In this document: positions 5,837 through 12,645 of the stretch, one piece after another | How the letters are laid out: each line of letters starts with the position of its first letter | How positions within the stretch are numbered: the first letter of the stretch is position 1 | Assembly: GCF_000397065.2 (NCBI RefSeq) | Contig: NZ_KE007326.1 | Coordinates: forward strand, 15,302 to 79,301 | Length of the DNA stretch: 64,000 nucleotides | Direction of reading: 5' to 3' | From: Marinobacter lipolyticus SM19 | Lineage (GTDB): Bacteria; Pseudomonadota; Gammaproteobacteria; Pseudomonadales; Oleiphilaceae | Program-made: the position numbers and the translations under genes | Notes under the pieces: generated by a model | The model's database searches: none | What the model was told of the DNA's origin: nothing | What the model saw: the letters and a program-made list of their open reading frames with translations, nothing else

Positions 5837-6628
5837 ATGTTCTCAACGCGTTTTCGATGCGGGAAGCCGCTGGCTATTCTCGTTATTCTGCTTGTAATGT
5901 CCGGTTGTTCAGCGGACCGTTATTTAATGGTGCCCAAGGAAAACCTGGACAAACTTAACGGTTCTGTTCAATCCCAGCGCGCCACCCTGGTTACCATGGA
6001 GGGAAACGCCACGGCCCGACACGACAAGCTGGTGGAGATCAACAACACCTCCACCCGGACTATCCTCGAAGCCATCGAACAGAAAATCGAAAAACCCGAG
6101 TGCCCTCCGGTCACCGCACAAGCATGCCCCTCAGTCACAAACCAGCCTTCGAAAGGCCGCGCTGACAGACTGAAAGGCAAGCTCATTGTCGGTGAGCTGG
6201 AAAAGTTCTACCTGGCGGGCCCCGGCATTGTGTATAACGCCCGCATAGACAGCGGCGCGGAAACGTCGTCCATTGACGCACGCAACATCACAAAGTTCGA
6301 ACGCGACAGCAATAACTGGGTTCGCTTTGAAGTCCCGGTTCCGGGTAGTGAAGAATACGTCACTATGGAAAAAGAAGTTTCCCGCCGCGTCAGAATCATC
6401 CAGTCCAGCGCGGACGAAGCAGACCGGCGGGTGGTGGTCGAGCTCCAGTTTGCCATAGGAGATCACCAGCAAGTCGCTGAATTCACCCTGACCGACCGCA
6501 GACACCTGTCACACAATGTCCTGATTGGGAGAAATATACTCCGGGACATGATGCTCATCGACGTTGGCAAAGAGTTTGCCACCGAACTGCCTTCATCACT
6601 CACCCAAAACAACGGGGATGACTCGTGA
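5837..6628 (+). CDS. Retropepsin-like lipoprotein (RimB/DUF785-type putative protease)
   Basis: A 263-residue predicted lipoprotein: signal peptide with lipobox MSGC, lipidated Cys at 24, then a linker (about 40-110) and a C-terminal domain of the DUF785/RimB-like retropepsin family (about 115-250). The aspartic-protease motif IDSG is at residues 137-140, with Asp138 as the expected catalytic residue of a dimeric retropepsin. The family is often mislabelled ATP-dependent zinc protease, and no HExxH zinc site is present. Its stop overlaps the GTG of the next gene by four bases (GTGA). The genomic partners, a membrane protein with a dead transglutaminase domain and an ATP-grasp ligase, suggest it trims or processes a product of that ligase at the envelope. 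The substrate is unknown. Confidence 0.85.
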   Translation: MFSTRFRCGKPLAILVILLVMSGCSADRYLMVPKENLDKLNGSVQSQRATLVTMEGNATARHDKLVEINNTSTRTILEAIEQKIEKPECPPVTAQACPSVTNQPSKGRADRLKGKLIVGELEKFYLAGPGIVYNARIDSGAETSSIDARNITKFERDSNNWVRFEVPVPGSEEYVTMEKEVSRRVRIIQSSADEADRRVVVELQFAIGDHQQVAEFTLTDRRHLSHNVLIGRNILRDMMLIDVGKEFATELPSSLTQNNGDDS

Positions 6629-8142
6629 CTTCCCGCTCCCGAATTCCATTTTTCACCGCTATTGCCCTGCTGATTTTAGCCGGAACGGCACTAGCTATCT
6701 GGCGCCATGTAGAATTGGGCATACCCTGGCTCACAGGAGAACAACGCCCGGTCTGGATGGTTGAAGCCAGGATCGATTTCAACGCCGCAAACGAACCAGT
6801 GCTGGCCAGCCTGAACATTCCTGAGCAGTCTCCGGGATTCCGTATCCTTTCAGAACAGGCAGCCTCTCCCGGCTATGGCTTTTCGGTCGTCGAAAAGGAA
6901 GGGAGCCGGAGAGCCGAATGGTCCAAACGTGACGTGATAGGACCGCAAACCCTCTACTTCAAGACTCAGTTCATTCCCGATCCGAATGCCAACCGGGACC
7001 GCCCTCGCAGAGCGCCAAAGCCGATTTCCGTCTTTTGGGAAGAACCACAGGCAACCGCCGTACGTGAAATACTCATGCAGGCTGAGGAACGTTCCAGCAC
7101 GCCTGAAAGCATGACGCGCGAGCTGATCCGGCTGATGCAACCGGATACCCAGGCACAGAACACAACACTGCTGGTCTCCGGAACCAACCACCTGGACCTC
7201 CTGGTCCGCATGCTAAACCATGCAGGCATTCCCGCGCGAACCGCCGATGGGCTCAAGCTCGAAGATGCCCGGCGACGCCAGGGACTGACGCCGTTCCTGC
7301 AGATCTATAACGGTGACGAGTGGCTTACTTTCGATCCCAAATCCGGGGAACAGGGGCTACCGGAAGACACACTTCTTTGGCGTCAGGGGGCGGCATCCCT
7401 GCTGGATGTTGTAGGTGGGGACGATTCCAGCGTCAGCTTTTCAATACTGAGGCAGACCATACCTGCCTTGCAGCTGGCTGCCATGCAATCCGAAGAGAAT
7501 GGCTTCGGGTTCCTGAGCCTCTACCAGCTTCCAGTAGAAGAACAGAGCATGTTCCGGATGCTGCTCCTGCTTCCGCTCGGCGCCCTCATGGTTGCCTTCA
7601 TGCGCATCGTGATCGGTATTCGAACCTCAGGCACCTTCATGCCAGTCCTGATTGCGGTGGCATTTGTTCAGACCAACCTGCTTCCAGGACTTATTGCCTT
7701 CACCTCGGTGGTTGCCATAGGCCTGCTGATGCGCGGTTACCTGTCCAGCCTGAACCTGCTACTGGTGTCACGAATATCCGCGTTGATCATCCTGGTGATA
7801 TTTATCACTGCGGGCCTGAGTATTGTCGGCTATCAGATGGGCTTCAATACCGGCATGACCGTAACCTTCTTCCCGATGGTCATCATTGCCTGGACGATTG
7901 AACGTATGTCCATACTCTGGGAAGAAGAAGGCGCCCATGAAGTCGTTGTGCAGGGAGCCGGCAGCCTGTTTGTGGCGGTATGTGCGTTCCTGGTGATGGA
8001 CGCGCCACTGTCCCGGCACCTGACCTTCAACTTCCCGGAGCTGCACTTCGTCGTGCTCGGCCTCATTCTGCTGATGGGTCAGTATACAGGCTACAAGCTG
8101 AGTGAACTTCGTCGCTTCACCCCGATGAAGGCTTACGACTGA
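6625..8142 (+). CDS. Inactive transglutaminase domain fused to seven transmembrane helices
   Basis: A 505-residue membrane protein. One N-terminal helix (about 8-28) leads into a periplasmic region (about 30-300) with a transglutaminase-like core at about 165-245. The segment GTNHLDLLVRMLNHAGIPAR has the helix that normally starts with the catalytic Cys, but no Cys is there, and the strand that normally carries His reads LQIYNGDEWLTFDP. This matches the known inactive transglutaminase / 7TM architecture. Seven hydrophobic helices follow (about 310-495). The start is GTG at 6625, overlapping the upstream stop, and its stop shares one base with the next ATG (TGATG), so translation of the trio is almost certainly coupled. 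It is probably the membrane scaffold or substrate-binding part of the system. Confidence 0.85.
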   Translation: MTSRSRIPFFTAIALLILAGTALAIWRHVELGIPWLTGEQRPVWMVEARIDFNAANEPVLASLNIPEQSPGFRILSEQAASPGYGFSVVEKEGSRRAEWSKRDVIGPQTLYFKTQFIPDPNANRDRPRRAPKPISVFWEEPQATAVREILMQAEERSSTPESMTRELIRLMQPDTQAQNTTLLVSGTNHLDLLVRMLNHAGIPARTADGLKLEDARRRQGLTPFLQIYNGDEWLTFDPKSGEQGLPEDTLLWRQGAASLLDVVGGDDSSVSFSILRQTIPALQLAAMQSEENGFGFLSLYQLPVEEQSMFRMLLLLPLGALMVAFMRIVIGIRTSGTFMPVLIAVAFVQTNLLPGLIAFTSVVAIGLLMRGYLSSLNLLLVSRISALIILVIFITAGLSIVGYQMGFNTGMTVTFFPMVIIAWTIERMSILWEEEGAHEVVVQGAGSLFVAVCAFLVMDAPLSRHLTFNFPELHFVVLGLILLMGQYTGYKLSELRRFTPMKAYD

Positions 8143-9092
8143 TGGACTGGATTTCTCCCCGCGCACTGACCCGGCTGGGCATGCTCAACATGAACCGGAG
8201 AAATGTCGATTATATCTCCCGGTACAACGACCGAACGTCTTATCCGTTAGTGGACAACAAGCTGAAAACCAAGCTGGTGGTAGCTGAATACGGTGTCAAA
8301 ACACCCAAGCTGCTGCAAGTTGTTCGACAGCAACACGAAATCCCGCACTTCCGGGAAATGGCGGAAGACCTGACAGGCTTTGCGATAAAGCCCGCCAAGG
8401 GTTCCGGCGGCAAGGGCATCACGGTCATCACTGGCCGTGACGGAGATGAGTTTATCAAGGCTTCTGGCGCCCGAGTGCCTGCCGCTTACCTTGAAAGGCA
8501 CCTGTCCAACATACTCGCGGGCTTGTACTCCCTGGCTGGAACACCAGACGTTGCTATTGTCGAAAATCTGGTGGAGTCAGTGCCGGGACTGGCCAAATAC
8601 TCGCATCAGGGTGTCCCTGACATTCGCATTATCATCTTCCAGGGCTATCCCGTCATGGCGATGCTTCGGCTGGCGACGACCGCCTCCGACGGCAAGGCCA
8701 ATCTTCACCAGGGTGCAGTCGGTGTAGGCCTGGACATCGGTACGGGAAAGAGCCTGAACTCCGTACAATTCAACCGACCGATCACATTGCACCCGGACAC
8801 AGGCCTTGCCCTGGAAAACATTGATATAGCTGACTGGGAAGAGATGCTGACCATGGCATCCCGGTGCTATGAAGCTACCGGCCTTGGCTATATGGGTGTG
8901 GATTTAGTGGTCGACATTAACGAGGGACCGTTGCTTCTGGAATTGAATGCACGCCCGGGACTGGCTATTCAGATGGCTAATGGTCGGGGGCTTGTACCAC
9001 GCCTGCGCGCCATTGAGGGCCTCAAGAGGCATCACTTTACCCCGGAGCAGCGCGCCCGCTTCGCCATGGATGCTTTCTCAAGCCAACAATAG
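8142..9092 (+). CDS. RimK-related ATP-grasp ligase (alpha-L-glutamate ligase-like)
   Basis: A 316-residue ATP-grasp enzyme. The glycine-rich nucleotide loop KPAKGSGGKGITVI lies at about residues 84-97, and the metal-binding motif LLLELNARPGLAIQMAN at about 265-281. ATP-grasp ligases activate a carboxylate as acyl phosphate and join it to an amine; this subgroup is annotated as alpha-L-glutamate ligase-like because of distant similarity to RimK. It is the last gene of the trio and is followed by an intrinsic terminator at 9118-9150. No signal peptide is seen, so it acts in the cytoplasm while its partners face the periplasm. The acceptor and the amino acid added cannot be read from sequence. 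Confidence 0.88.
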   Translation: MDWISPRALTRLGMLNMNRRNVDYISRYNDRTSYPLVDNKLKTKLVVAEYGVKTPKLLQVVRQQHEIPHFREMAEDLTGFAIKPAKGSGGKGITVITGRDGDEFIKASGARVPAAYLERHLSNILAGLYSLAGTPDVAIVENLVESVPGLAKYSHQGVPDIRIIIFQGYPVMAMLRLATTASDGKANLHQGAVGVGLDIGTGKSLNSVQFNRPITLHPDTGLALENIDIADWEEMLTMASRCYEATGLGYMGVDLVVDINEGPLLLELNARPGLAIQMANGRGLVPRLRAIEGLKRHHFTPEQRARFAMDAFSSQQ

Positions 9093-9117: not shown

Positions 9118-9150
9118 AAAAAACCGGAGCCCTTGAGCTCCGGTTTTTTA
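9118..9150. terminator. Bidirectional intrinsic terminator
   Basis: A hairpin with stem ACCGGAGC/GCTCCGGT and loop CCTTGA, flanked by A-run on the left and T-run on the right, so it ends transcription from both directions. It separates the convergent ATP-grasp operon (plus strand, ends 9092) from the BCCT gene (minus strand, ends 9163). Confidence 0.9.
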
Positions 9151-9162
9151 TTCAACCTAAAA

Positions 9163-10755
9163 CTATGACAGCTTGCCTTCGGCAATCAGCAGTTTCCGTT
9201 CATGGGTCAGGCCTTTCAACAGCCCCCACGTCATAATCAGCAATATGGCAGTGAACGGTAGACCTGCGGAAATGGCGCTTGCCTGAATGGCTCCAAGGGC
9301 ATCCTCACCGCCACCGAAGATCAGCGCCGCGGCAATCGCGCCTTCCATGATTACCCAGAAGACACGCTGGACAGTCGGGGCATCGGTTTTACCACCGGCG
9401 GTAATGCTGTCAACCACCAGGGAACCTGAATCCGACGAAGTCACAAAGAACACCAGCACCAGCACGATCCCGATAAAGGAGATAATGCCCGTCAGCGGCA
9501 GGTTGGCAAACATCTGGAACATGGCCAGGGACACATCGGTCAGGCCATTCTCTGCCAGCGCACCGATTCCCTGCTGGATCTGTTCCAGGGCAGAACCACC
9601 GAAAGCACTCATCCAGACAACCGTAATAACGGTGGGAATGATCAGCACTGCTGTCACGAATTCACGCACTGTGCGGCCCTTGGAAACACGGGCGATAAAC
9701 ATGCCGACGAACGGTGACCAGGAAATCCACCACGCCCAGTAGAACACCGTCCAGCCGTGGAACCAGGCTTCATCTTCACGGCCGAATGGATTACTCAACG
9801 GAATAATGTTGGCCACATAAGTGGATGAAGTCACCCACATAGTTTCAATGATGGTCATGGTGGGACCAGCAAAGATAATGAAGAATAGCAGGATGCCCGC
9901 CAGCGCCATGTTGAAGTTACTAAGAACTTTCACACCACCGTCAAGACCACGCAGAACCGAAACCAGAGCGACTGCGGTAACACCGGTGATGATGGCCATC
10001 TGGACATTGATACCGGACGAAACTCCGAACAGATACTCCAGGCCCGAGGCCGCTTGTTGGGCACCAAAACCCAGCGAAGTGGCAAGACCAAAAATAGTCG
10101 CAAGCACTGCCAGCACATCGATAATGTGACCGGGCCAACCCCAAACCTTATCACGCAGTAGCGGGAAAAACGCCGAGCGGATAGTCAGCGGCATCCCCTT
10201 ATTGTAGGCAAAAAACGCGAGGGAAAGAGCGACAATCGCATAGATGGCCCACGGGTGAAGACCCCAGTGATACATAGTGGCGCCCATCGCCATCTCACTC
10301 GCTGCGGGGGTATTCGCTTCCACATTGAAGGGCGTTTCGTACCACCCGGTGTAATAGGCCGTTGGTTCAGCTACCGCCCAGAACATCAGGCCAATCCCCA
10401 TACCAGCCGCAAACAGCATGGCGAACCAGGAGATGGTCGAAAACTCAGGCTTGGCATCCATACCGCCAATCCGAATCTTTCCTACCGGCATAAAGATAAG
10501 CGCCAGACATACCACCACAAAAACGTTGGCGCTGAGCAGGAAAAACCAGTCAAAGGTGCCAATGATGTTCCATTTCGCCCCATCGAGCATTTCTTTTGAC
10601 TCGGCCGGAAACATCAGCGTTCCGACAACAAAAAGCACCACCAATATCGCCGTAATCGGGAATACCGGTGCATGTAGGTCGAGGCCAAAAGGATTTACAT
10701 TATCCTGGCCCGCGACGTAATCCGTCTGGTACTCGTCTTTTACAACGTCGCCCAC
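9163..10755 (-). CDS. BCCT-family betaine/choline/carnitine transporter
   Basis: A 530-residue carrier with about 12 transmembrane helices. The family signature in helix 8 is visible as YWAWWISWSPFVGMFIAR followed by VSKGRTVREF. This aromatic box region coordinates the quaternary ammonium group in BetP and CaiT. The protein has short N- and C-terminal tails, unlike BetP's long osmosensing tail, so regulation by osmotic stress cannot be inferred. Uptake of glycine betaine or a related compound, driven by sodium or protons, is likely and fits a marine organism. The start is GTG at 10755 with GGGAG nine bases upstream. It is divergent from the FMN protein at 11002. The exact substrate is not determinable. 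Confidence 0.9.
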   Translation of the reverse strand: MGDVVKDEYQTDYVAGQDNVNPFGLDLHAPVFPITAILVVLFVVGTLMFPAESKEMLDGAKWNIIGTFDWFFLLSANVFVVVCLALIFMPVGKIRIGGMDAKPEFSTISWFAMLFAAGMGIGLMFWAVAEPTAYYTGWYETPFNVEANTPAASEMAMGATMYHWGLHPWAIYAIVALSLAFFAYNKGMPLTIRSAFFPLLRDKVWGWPGHIIDVLAVLATIFGLATSLGFGAQQAASGLEYLFGVSSGINVQMAIITGVTAVALVSVLRGLDGGVKVLSNFNMALAGILLFFIIFAGPTMTIIETMWVTSSTYVANIIPLSNPFGREDEAWFHGWTVFYWAWWISWSPFVGMFIARVSKGRTVREFVTAVLIIPTVITVVWMSAFGGSALEQIQQGIGALAENGLTDVSLAMFQMFANLPLTGIISFIGIVLVLVFFVTSSDSGSLVVDSITAGGKTDAPTVQRVFWVIMEGAIAAALIFGGGEDALGAIQASAISAGLPFTAILLIMTWGLLKGLTHERKLLIAEGKLS

Positions 10756-11001: not shown

Positions 11002-12645
11002 ATGGAGAAAACCACGACCTTCCCCCTGAGGTACACCACCTATGCCTTGAGTATCGCGGGACTGCTGATCACCGCGCCGCTCAGCATCTTTCTGGAACGA
11101 TGGTACCTGCTGCCGGTCATTTTCGGTGCTCTTACCGCCATCGGCACCTGGGACATGGTGCAGCGCCGGCACACCGTGAGCCGTAACTACCCTATCCTCG
11201 CCAATTTCCGCTATATCCTGGAATCTATTGGCCCGGAAATACGCCAGTACTTTATTCAATCCGATACCGAAGAACGTCCTTTCTCGAGGGAACAACGAAG
11301 CATTGTCTATCAACGTGCCAAAAATGTGCTGGACAAGCGCCCATTCGGCTCCCAACTAAGCATGTATGAGCCAGGCTACGAGTGGATGAACCACTCCCTG
11401 ATCCCGACGCGACTGGACGGCAGCGATTTCCGGATTCTTATTGGTAAACAGTGCGATAAACCCTACAGTGCCAGCGTGTTCAACATCTCGGCCATGAGTT
11501 TTGGTTCTCTCTCCGCCAATGCCATTCTCAGCCTGAACACAGGCGCCAGAATGGGCCATTTCTACCACGATACCGGGGAAGGCTCGATTTCCCGATACCA
11601 CCGTGAGCCAGGCGGCGACCTGGTGTGGGAAATTGGTTCCGGTTATTTCGGTTGTCGCCATCCGGATGGCACGTTCAACGAAGACATGTTCGTTAAAAAC
11701 GCCACTCTGGATCAGGTGAAAATGATAGAGCTCAAACTGTCCCAAGGGGCAAAACCCGGCCATGGCGGCATCTTGCCCGGCGCCAAAGTAACACCGGAAA
11801 TCGCGGAAGCGAGAGGGGTGCCGGTTGGTGAAGATGTGGTGTCTCCGGCAAAACACTCGGCCTTCAGTACTCCCATAGAGATGCTGGAATTCATCGAACG
11901 ACTGAGGATTCTGTCGGGAGGCAAGCCAGTTGGCTTCAAACTCGCGATCGGACACCCATGGGAATGGTTTGCGATCGTCAAGGCCATGCTGGAAACCGGC
12001 AGGAGGCCGGATTTTATCGTCGTGGATGGCGGTGAAGGCGGCACCGGCGCTGCCCCGCTGGAATTCATCAACCGCCTGGGAATGCCCATGAAGGAAGCCT
12101 TGCTACTGGTACACAACACCCTCGTAGGCACCAATCTGCGCGAAGACATTGCCATTGGCGCCGCTGGCAAGATCACATCCGCCTTTAACATCGCCCGCAC
12201 TCTTGCCCTCGGCGCAGACTGGTGTAACGCCGCACGCGGCTATATGTTTTCCCTGGGGTGTATCCAGGCCCAGAACTGTCATACCGGTCGCTGCCCCAGC
12301 GGAGTTGCCACGCAGGATCCCCGTCGCGGCAACAAACTGGACGTAGCCGATAAGAGTCGCCGGGTTTACAACTATCATAAAAACACCCTGGACGCCCTCC
12401 AGAACCTCCTTGAAGCTTCCGGTCTGAACCATCCATCCGAACTGGGACCGGAGCACATCATTCAACGCACATCGAAGAGCGAGGTTCATTCCTATATGGA
12501 CATGCTGCCCTTTCTTGAGCCAGGGGCCTTGCTGAAAGGGAAAACCGGTCTCGGTGTATTCGATAAATACTGGCCGGAAGCTCAACCAGACACCTTCGGA
12601 CCACCGGAAATGATCATCAAGTTGCGAGAAACCAAGCTCCATTAA
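11002..12645 (+). CDS. Membrane-anchored FMN-binding glutamate synthase-family protein
   Basis: A 547-residue protein: two transmembrane helices (about residues 12-28 and 34-54), then a full-length FMN-binding glutamate-synthase barrel (about 120-480). Flavin-binding GGEGGTGAAPLEF is present, as is a Cx5Cx4C cluster (CIQAQNCHTGRC) that in GltB holds a 3Fe-4S centre. The glutaminase (amidotransferase class II) domain and the GltD-type NADPH domain are absent, so it cannot be a complete glutamate synthase; it belongs to the stand-alone GltB2-like family whose reaction is unsettled. A GAGAGGACGCC stretch precedes the ATG. No operon partner is apparent; the gene is divergent from the BCCT transporter. 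Confidence 0.85.
   Translation: MEKTTTFPLRYTTYALSIAGLLITAPLSIFLERWYLLPVIFGALTAIGTWDMVQRRHTVSRNYPILANFRYILESIGPEIRQYFIQSDTEERPFSREQRSIVYQRAKNVLDKRPFGSQLSMYEPGYEWMNHSLIPTRLDGSDFRILIGKQCDKPYSASVFNISAMSFGSLSANAILSLNTGARMGHFYHDTGEGSISRYHREPGGDLVWEIGSGYFGCRHPDGTFNEDMFVKNATLDQVKMIELKLSQGAKPGHGGILPGAKVTPEIAEARGVPVGEDVVSPAKHSAFSTPIEMLEFIERLRILSGGKPVGFKLAIGHPWEWFAIVKAMLETGRRPDFIVVDGGEGGTGAAPLEFINRLGMPMKEALLLVHNTLVGTNLREDIAIGAAGKITSAFNIARTLALGADWCNAARGYMFSLGCIQAQNCHTGRCPSGVATQDPRRGNKLDVADKSRRVYNYHKNTLDALQNLLEASGLNHPSELGPEHIIQRTSKSEVHSYMDMLPFLEPGALLKGKTGLGVFDKYWPEAQPDTFGPPEMIIKLRETKLH

Follow-up and report, generated by a model that had tools for sequence, protein, structure and literature searches.

A Marinobacter rlo Operon with a Lipoprotein Retropepsin, and Relatives with an Intact Transglutaminase

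Introduction

The rlo operon was described in 2025 in Pseudomonas aeruginosa (PMC12239564). The three overlapping genes at positions 5837 to 9092 of the stretch studied here, 64,000 nucleotides of Marinobacter lipolyticus SM19 (contig NZ_KE007326.1, positions 15,302 to 79,301 of the forward strand; "the window"), are the Marinobacter version of this operon. In P. aeruginosa, the secreted retropepsin RloA cleaved reporters with 8 or 10 glutamates in vitro, not those with 6 or fewer, and it cleaved polyglutamate within proteins as well as at C-termini, with arginines blocking cleavage (PMC12239564). A triple RloA deletion mutant did not grow without salt and had defects in shape, biofilm and antibiotic response; its failure in low salt was rescued by deletion of rloB or rloC, and phenotypes with cell-wall antibiotics were reported for rlo mutants (PMC12239564). 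Envelope stress, biofilm formation and tolerance to antibiotics all depend on the operon in that species, and the study reports no encoded periplasmic protein with at least eight consecutive glutamates (PMC12239564).

Several related systems have been described. Both in vitro and in vivo, poly-alpha-glutamate is a product of RimK; the enzyme adds glutamate to RpsF, and RimB takes it off (PMC11957791). A Shewanella mutant in a gene for an inactive transglutaminase over-produced membrane vesicles (PMC12096838), and PA1766, PA1767 and PA1768, presumably the rlo genes, received suppressor insertions in a study of P. aeruginosa exopolysaccharide (PMC7314104). An original prediction, made from the letters of the window alone, had named a system of lipoprotein, dead transglutaminase and ATP-grasp ligase with an unknown substrate. 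Iyer et al. are said to have predicted, in 2009, amidoligase systems in which ATP-grasp genes have transglutaminase-like partners. The rlo operon is already described, and the question of the substrate is narrower than that prediction assumed: RloA was reported to cleave poly-glutamate in vitro, and the toxicity of losing RloA to depend on RloB and RloC (PMC12239564).

The probable role of the rlo operon is to produce, handle and trim a polymer rich in glutamate at the envelope, which would aid survival in low salt. New here are nine RloB relatives that have a live transglutaminase and RloC and lack RloA nearby. No description of this active form was recognised among the papers listed in searches of open-licence PMC articles. 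The comparison of these relatives, made at the level of sequence, suggests that a task once performed by a transglutaminase, now dead, passed to the protease.

Results

Three Overlapping Genes Form the Operon

The features of the operon are as follows:

5837..6628, plus strand: rloA, retropepsin-like lipoprotein, 263 aa (PF05618, 109 bits; sequence relatives in PDB 9g58, 9g59 and 2pma)
5837..5908, plus strand: lipoprotein signal up to Cys24 (MSGC, lipobox-like; from the sequence)
6185..6580, plus strand: retropepsin domain, residues 117-248, free of Cys (PF05618 match and sequence)
6248..6250, plus strand: codon of the catalytic Asp138 (IDSG), aligned to the Asp of the DTG motif of 9g58
6625..8142, plus strand: rloB, dead transglutaminase fused to a membrane domain, 505 aa, GTG start (PF14400, PF14402, model)
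6727..7479, plus strand: outside domain of RloB, about residues 35-285, transglutaminase-like fold without Cys (model, alignments)
7510..8139, plus strand: membrane domain of RloB, about residues 296-505 (PF14402, models)
8142..9092, plus strand: rloC, RimK-related ATP-grasp ligase, 316 aa (PF14397, TIGR02291, conserved residues)

The rloA/rloB junction is GTGA at 6625-6628 and the rloB/rloC junction is TGATG at 8140-8144. The overlaps claimed in the original prediction thus agree with the open reading frame (ORF) coordinates, all on the plus strand. Its three gene assignments also held: the retropepsin-like lipoprotein with an IDSG motif through MSGC/Cys24, Asp138 and the PF05618 score, the seven-helix protein with a Cys-less transglutaminase through PF14400/PF14402, alignments and an AlphaFold model, and the RimK-related ligase through PF14397, TIGR02291 and conserved residues.

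RloA Is a Stalked Lipoprotein with a Basic Pocket

In RloA the lipoprotein signal is followed by a stalk of about 90 residues and then by the PF05618 domain (109 bits, residues 117-248). Despite the Pfam name "zinc protease", PF05618 proteins are described as retropepsin-like aspartic peptidases (PMC12239564). Asp138 of the window protein aligns with the catalytic Asp of 9g58. This entry and 9g59 are taken by us to be structures from the P. aeruginosa rlo study. When the numbering was transferred from 9g58 by spacing from the catalytic Asp, the polyglutamate-binding residues K46, R92, R114 and R137 of P. aeruginosa RloA corresponded to R136, R183, R198 and R221 in the window; K95 corresponded to the likewise basic Arg186, and the positions of K97 and R99 were non-basic.

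The domain cysteine pair typical of the described periplasmic RloAs was absent from the window RloA, which has no Cys after residue 117. This pair is a trait of the described RloAs and does not define the rlo operon. The window RloA scored well below the NCBIfam cut-offs for RloA, RloA2 and RloA3 (best 97.7 of 210 bits), and the window RloB below that for RloB (332.6 against 900 bits). The NCBIfam RloB model and two of the RloA models are of the type "exception" and were therefore read as narrow, so that these misses concern the subtype and not the operon.

Some relatives deviate in the protease motif. The Ala that follows DTG is replaced in the RloA of L066, L068, L072 and L086 (Gilvimarinus), and in L114 the motif reads VDDEA. 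Judged from these motifs, the proteases of the five loci may be altered or dead, with RloB and RloC kept.

RloC Is a Probable ATP-Grasp Ligase

RloC matched PF14397 with 295 bits and TIGR02291 with 403 bits, above the cut-off of 314. Among 79 RloC sequences with a length of 280 aa or more, K83, R162, R176, N187, D254, E267 and N269 were invariant (79/79) and E141 was present in 78. We take K83, E141, D254, E267 and N269 to be the functional residues of ATP-grasp enzymes. The invariant residues point to a working ATP-grasp ligase. RloC is not RimK itself, because the same genome has a separate rimB-rimK pair (G000:C20:413-415 kb); it further contains a third RloA-like gene, which stands free and whose product carries a signal peptide and two domain cysteines.

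A polyglutamate encoded in the genome was considered as the substrate of RloA and rejected. A search for pure Glu runs found no six consecutive Glu codons in the 4.02 Mb assembly, and such a substrate is thus unlikely.

RloB Combines a Dead Transglutaminase with a Membrane Domain

RloB matched PF14400 with 185.7 bits and PF14402 with 343.7 bits; against PDB sequences there was one weak transglutaminase match (E 0.53). Residues 35-285 were free of Cys in 76 of the 78 rows of two alignments (30 and 48 rows, the window row in both). The AlphaFold model made with 48 sequences (pLDDT 81.7, pTM 0.64) predicted a helical membrane part and an outside part that resembled the transglutaminase-like 3isr_A (Z 13.3, rmsd 4.2, 219 residues) and TgpA 6g49 (Z 6.7, 169 residues). 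An Arg-rich loop, LEDARRRQ (about residues 212-219), is kept in the dead domain of the window clade, with E213 and R216 in 48/48 rows, and could possibly be an acid-binding site.

The membrane part was also modelled alone (pLDDT 75.2, pTM 0.70), and Foldseek gave no match below E 1 for it. In two models the best structural matches of the membrane part were NqrD/RnfA chains (Z about 8, rmsd 3.1-3.6, 117-124 residues), which is within the chance range for helical proteins. The profile comparison gave P 0.35-0.42 and thus no support, and the NqrD/RnfA fold is treated as a lead only. Homology to PgsC/CapC was also considered, and hhalign gave no significant match (P 0.03-0.17 with few CapC sequences). 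Pfam scans, including those of 30 RloBs, had no CapC match, and NCBIfam gave no CapC family for 31 membrane domains. CapC matches were obtained in only 6 of the 299 genomes of the phylum, with 5 exceeding the cut-off, and in 5 of the 78 genomes of one class; a scan of viral_contigs yielded no relative and CapC had no match among PDB chains, which left the CapC profile thin.

A stretch of a Halobacterium plasmid (CP007061.1:107121-107624) matched part of the seven-transmembrane (7TM) domain with E 2e-7, covering 31% of the query. On this match, archaea may possess the domain as well.

The Window Represents a Clade-Wide Subtype

A scan for relatives was evaluated for the best 80 loci listed, 80 being the count of matches listed. 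All 80 had the order A-B-C, which is beyond chance; in L105 RloC was only a short match. Closest among the matches listed were 17 Marinobacter contigs (71-89% identity over RloB), and loci of Vibrio, Aeromonas and Shewanella were also present. By simple sequence patterns for stalk, lipobox and cysteines, a lipobox-like site lay 70-160 residues ahead of the catalytic motif in 74 of the 80 listed RloAs, which thus look like stalked lipoproteins, and 77 had fewer than two domain cysteines. In a separate sample, operons with a TSGTF-type RloB had RloAs with fewer than two domain cysteines in 16/17 cases and with a stalk in 12/17; with a TFGTF-type RloB, the stalk was missing in 47/49 and at least two cysteines were present in 46/49.

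A tree of the membrane domain was calculated with 94 tips including the window, one locus having been dropped for short coverage. The 18 TSGTF-type proteins, with the window among them, and three others formed one clade with a support of 1.0. Together with the patterns, this indicates that the window represents a clade-wide subtype, shared with Vibrio, Aeromonas and Shewanella, most of whose RloAs are stalked lipoproteins that lack the domain cysteine pair. PF14402 was found in 47/229 class genomes and in 67/115 order genomes.

Three rlo operons with 52-59% RloB identity (L061, L070, L074) lay on metagenome-assembled genome (MAG) contigs labelled Desulfobacterales or Desulfuromonas/Desulfuromonadales; they represent either transfer or mis-binning.

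Relatives with a Live Transglutaminase Lack a Nearby RloA

Some divergent RloB-like proteins have an intact triad (ASCNG...SHQWVE...PFD). A profile of these proteins matched 131/369 class genomes, many of them via other transglutaminase domains only, and the active form was carried by eight of these 131 and by G592 from the order search. Altogether 95 neighbourhoods were fetched, a selection from the class, order and intact-triad profile matches, and 94 of them hold an RloB-like protein (all but L221). L220 lacks a transglutaminase domain and does not enter the table of dead and active forms, and G756, with in-frame stops, is outside the fetched set. The RloB of L258 is in two pieces, the match in L257 contains one stop and L219 has masked or unknown bases; in addition, stretches that reach contig ends (e.g., L212, L260, L288) can hide partners.

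Cys, His and Asp were all intact in nine loci, and RloC adjoined in seven of them and was fused in two. RloA was found near none of these nine loci (0/9) and in the stretch of 78 of the 84 loci with a dead domain (71/75 of the dead loci with RloC). Since all noticed intact-triad loci were taken and the dead ones only in part, the ratio 9:84 is not a frequency. The association of the triad with RloA had a Fisher p of 5e-9, uncorrected for kinship. A live transglutaminase without RloA, and a dead one usually with it, predicts what RloA does. In L217 an RloA lies about 5 kb away, beyond the fetched stretch, and the genome of L218 has its RloA elsewhere. Among the nine genomes with the active form, no PF05618 gene was found in G071, G197 and G705 (97-99% complete), only one without a visible signal peptide, RimB-like by eye, was present in each of G101, G181 and G719, and in G033, G592 and G702 an RloA adjoins a separate locus with a dead transglutaminase.

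The nine active loci form one clade in the membrane-domain tree (support 0.97). With the root at L220, the lone dead forms branch before the active and rlo forms, and two losses of the triad are needed, whereas rooting on the active clade requires a single loss. The rlo branch was recovered as a clade with a support of only 0.67.

In two of the nine loci, L211:2976-5492 (838 aa) and L212:195-2636 (813 aa), a single protein unites the 7TM domain with a transglutaminase of the active type and an ATP-grasp domain like that of RloC, which argues that B and C work as one. In the active operons RloC is followed by a tetratricopeptide repeat (TPR) protein, confirmed by Pfam in all four loci scanned (L211-L214), with genes of similar size in others. 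In L213, L214, L215, L257 and L258 an exported, outer-membrane-like protein of 390-412 aa comes next; the one that was scanned showed a weak likeness to EpsL (25.5 bits, cut-off 275) and no Pfam match. By analogy, these partners resemble those of polymer exporters, and they predict secretion. They count against a first alternative, which we regard as unlikely although it is the strongest of three: RloC would glutamylate one specific protein or lipid acceptor presented by the RloB scaffold, and RloA would remove the tag after export, with no free polymer. The reported addition of glutamate to RpsF by RimK and its removal by RimB are a precedent for such a tag (PMC11957791), and RloA was reported to cleave polyglutamate inside proteins and at C-termini (PMC12239564). 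However, no acceptor gene accompanies the operon: in the fetched flanks outside Marinobacter the neighbours of the window do not recur, bar one weak CtaG match in L064.

In L216 and L259-L263 a dead RloB-like protein is accompanied, at a distance of up to about 3 kb, by an RloA encoded on the opposite strand, and RloC is missing from the stretch; these could possibly be RloA-RloB pairs without ligase. Such loci, and a dead enzyme domain on the outside, would suit RloB as a sensor, with RloA cutting or releasing RloB or a partner and RloC acting as an effector rather than a chain maker. This second alternative has the lowest probability of the three and appears very improbable, as RloC has kept its ATP-grasp residues and RloB has no polyglutamate run.

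In the remote relative L220 (2802-6471) a 7TM domain without transglutaminase is fused to an ATP-grasp domain like that of D-Ala-D-Ala ligases, flanked by an HlyD-type protein on one side and an Asp/Asn-hydroxylase-like protein on the other. The fusion, like the reported cell-shape and cell-wall antibiotic phenotypes of P. aeruginosa rlo mutants (PMC12239564), would fit a third alternative, in which RloC adds glutamate to peptidoglycan or another envelope precursor, RloB carries or senses the precursor and RloA trims the finished wall. We consider it improbable, slightly less so than the sensor. To our knowledge, ordinary peptidoglycan stem peptides offer no run of eight glutamates. RloA, in contrast, was reported to require at least eight consecutive glutamates in vitro and to be blocked by arginines (PMC12239564).

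Flanking Features

The flanks of the operon contain the following features:

9124..9149, no strand assigned: hairpin with a 7 bp stem and a loop of 6, then a T-run (read by eye; between rloC and the convergent BCCT gene)
9163-10755, convergent with the rlo operon: BCCT transporter gene
11002-12645: gene of a protein with a glutamate-synthase domain, near the rlo operon

The hairpin with its T-run is probably the terminator of the operon, judging by its appearance; it was absent from the terminator list of the pattern scan. That scan found five terminators (3.9 expected) and one promoter (1.9 expected). A link to the neighbouring betaine transporter was considered and rejected, because BCCT and RmuC genes were in the flanks of 17/17 Marinobacter loci and of 0/63 other loci, some with short fetched flanks, which indicates lineage synteny. 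Outside Marinobacter, the weak CtaG match in L064 aside, no neighbour of the window recurred in the fetched flanks.

Discussion

The proposed mechanism begins in the cytoplasm, where RloC, bound to RloB, would link glutamates through alpha bonds to form a chain, either free or attached to a carrier. This chain would be passed or presented to the periplasm by the RloB membrane domain, and RloA, on its lipid-anchored stalk, would trim it. Without trimming, anionic chains would pile up and overburden the envelope at low salt. In RloB, the dead transglutaminase domain would descend from an enzyme once active in the periplasm, which is still found in some relatives; RloA would have taken over its periplasmic step, and the dead domain would now only dock the chain. 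For the window, we give this mechanism as a whole a probability of roughly 0.55. The inside, membrane and outside geometry of the original prediction agrees with the sequence, with the fold prediction and with the genetics reported for the orthologous operon (PMC12239564). Its idea of an amino-acid tag that is added inside and trimmed outside may be correct; the relatives agree better with a polymer, either free or bound to a carrier.

We infer that RloB and RloC are one machine, the core that makes and handles the polymer, that its product is rich in glutamate and crosses the membrane, and that RloA trims it in place of the transglutaminase, which formerly did that step. This is supported by the Pfam and NCBIfam memberships, the gene order, the genetics and polyglutamate cleavage in P. 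aeruginosa, and the basic pocket residues, and further by the lack of encoded polyglutamate, the poly-alpha-glutamate made by RimK, the B-C fusions, the exporter-like partners in the active operons and the pattern of triad and RloA.

Several points weigh against the mechanism. The ligase activity and product of RloC and transport by RloB are predictions for every RloC and RloB, and profile and structure comparisons gave no significant relation of RloB to known exporters. As the active loci are one clade, the contrast between triad and RloA may go back to a single event. Four dead operons (L277, L294, L314, L324) have RloC and no RloA in the stretch. G517 (L324) has an RloA at its other locus; no signal-bearing RloA-like gene was found in G120 (L314) and G167 (L277), each with a RimB-like gene only, or in G676 (L294), with none. 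Lastly, the RimB-RimK pair (L001) and the free RloA-like gene (L002) in the genome of the window mean that roles may overlap.

A wider view is offered tentatively, with distinctly less confidence than the mechanism in the window. RloB and RloC could be the core of a family of ATP-grasp polypeptide synthase-exporters distinct from PgsBC. In the older form, a live periplasmic transglutaminase would cut, transfer or cross-link the emerging chain, and TPR and outer-membrane partners would secrete it. In the rlo branch the transglutaminase would have died, once or twice, and an unrelated retropepsin would have taken over. If true, a product-processing enzyme was replaced by an unrelated one and was itself retained as a docking domain. 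The fusions and the active relatives could be a direct handle on the product, as they offer one polypeptide and a live Cys that might trap it.

Comparison with Known Systems

The poly-gamma-glutamate synthase PgsBCA/CapBCA, a ligase and a small membrane protein that exports polyglutamate, is alike only as an idea of how the rlo operon might work; RloB has no significant CapC profile match and the operon is not counted as a member. RimB-RimK, the system of S6 polyglutamylation, also combines a retropepsin with an ATP-grasp ligase, and RloC shares the ATP-grasp domain with RimK. However, RimB and RimK are both cytoplasmic and have no RloB, and the first gene of the window encodes a lipoprotein, so that the operon does not belong to this system. 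Compared with the rlo operon of P. aeruginosa, the window RloA differs in being a lipoprotein whose stalk is about 90 residues long, in having DSG instead of DTG and in lacking the domain cysteine pair. Both operons have the basic pocket residues of RloA, and both contain the same three genes in the same order, i.e., a signal-bearing retropepsin, a dead transglutaminase with a 7TM domain and an ATP-grasp ligase.

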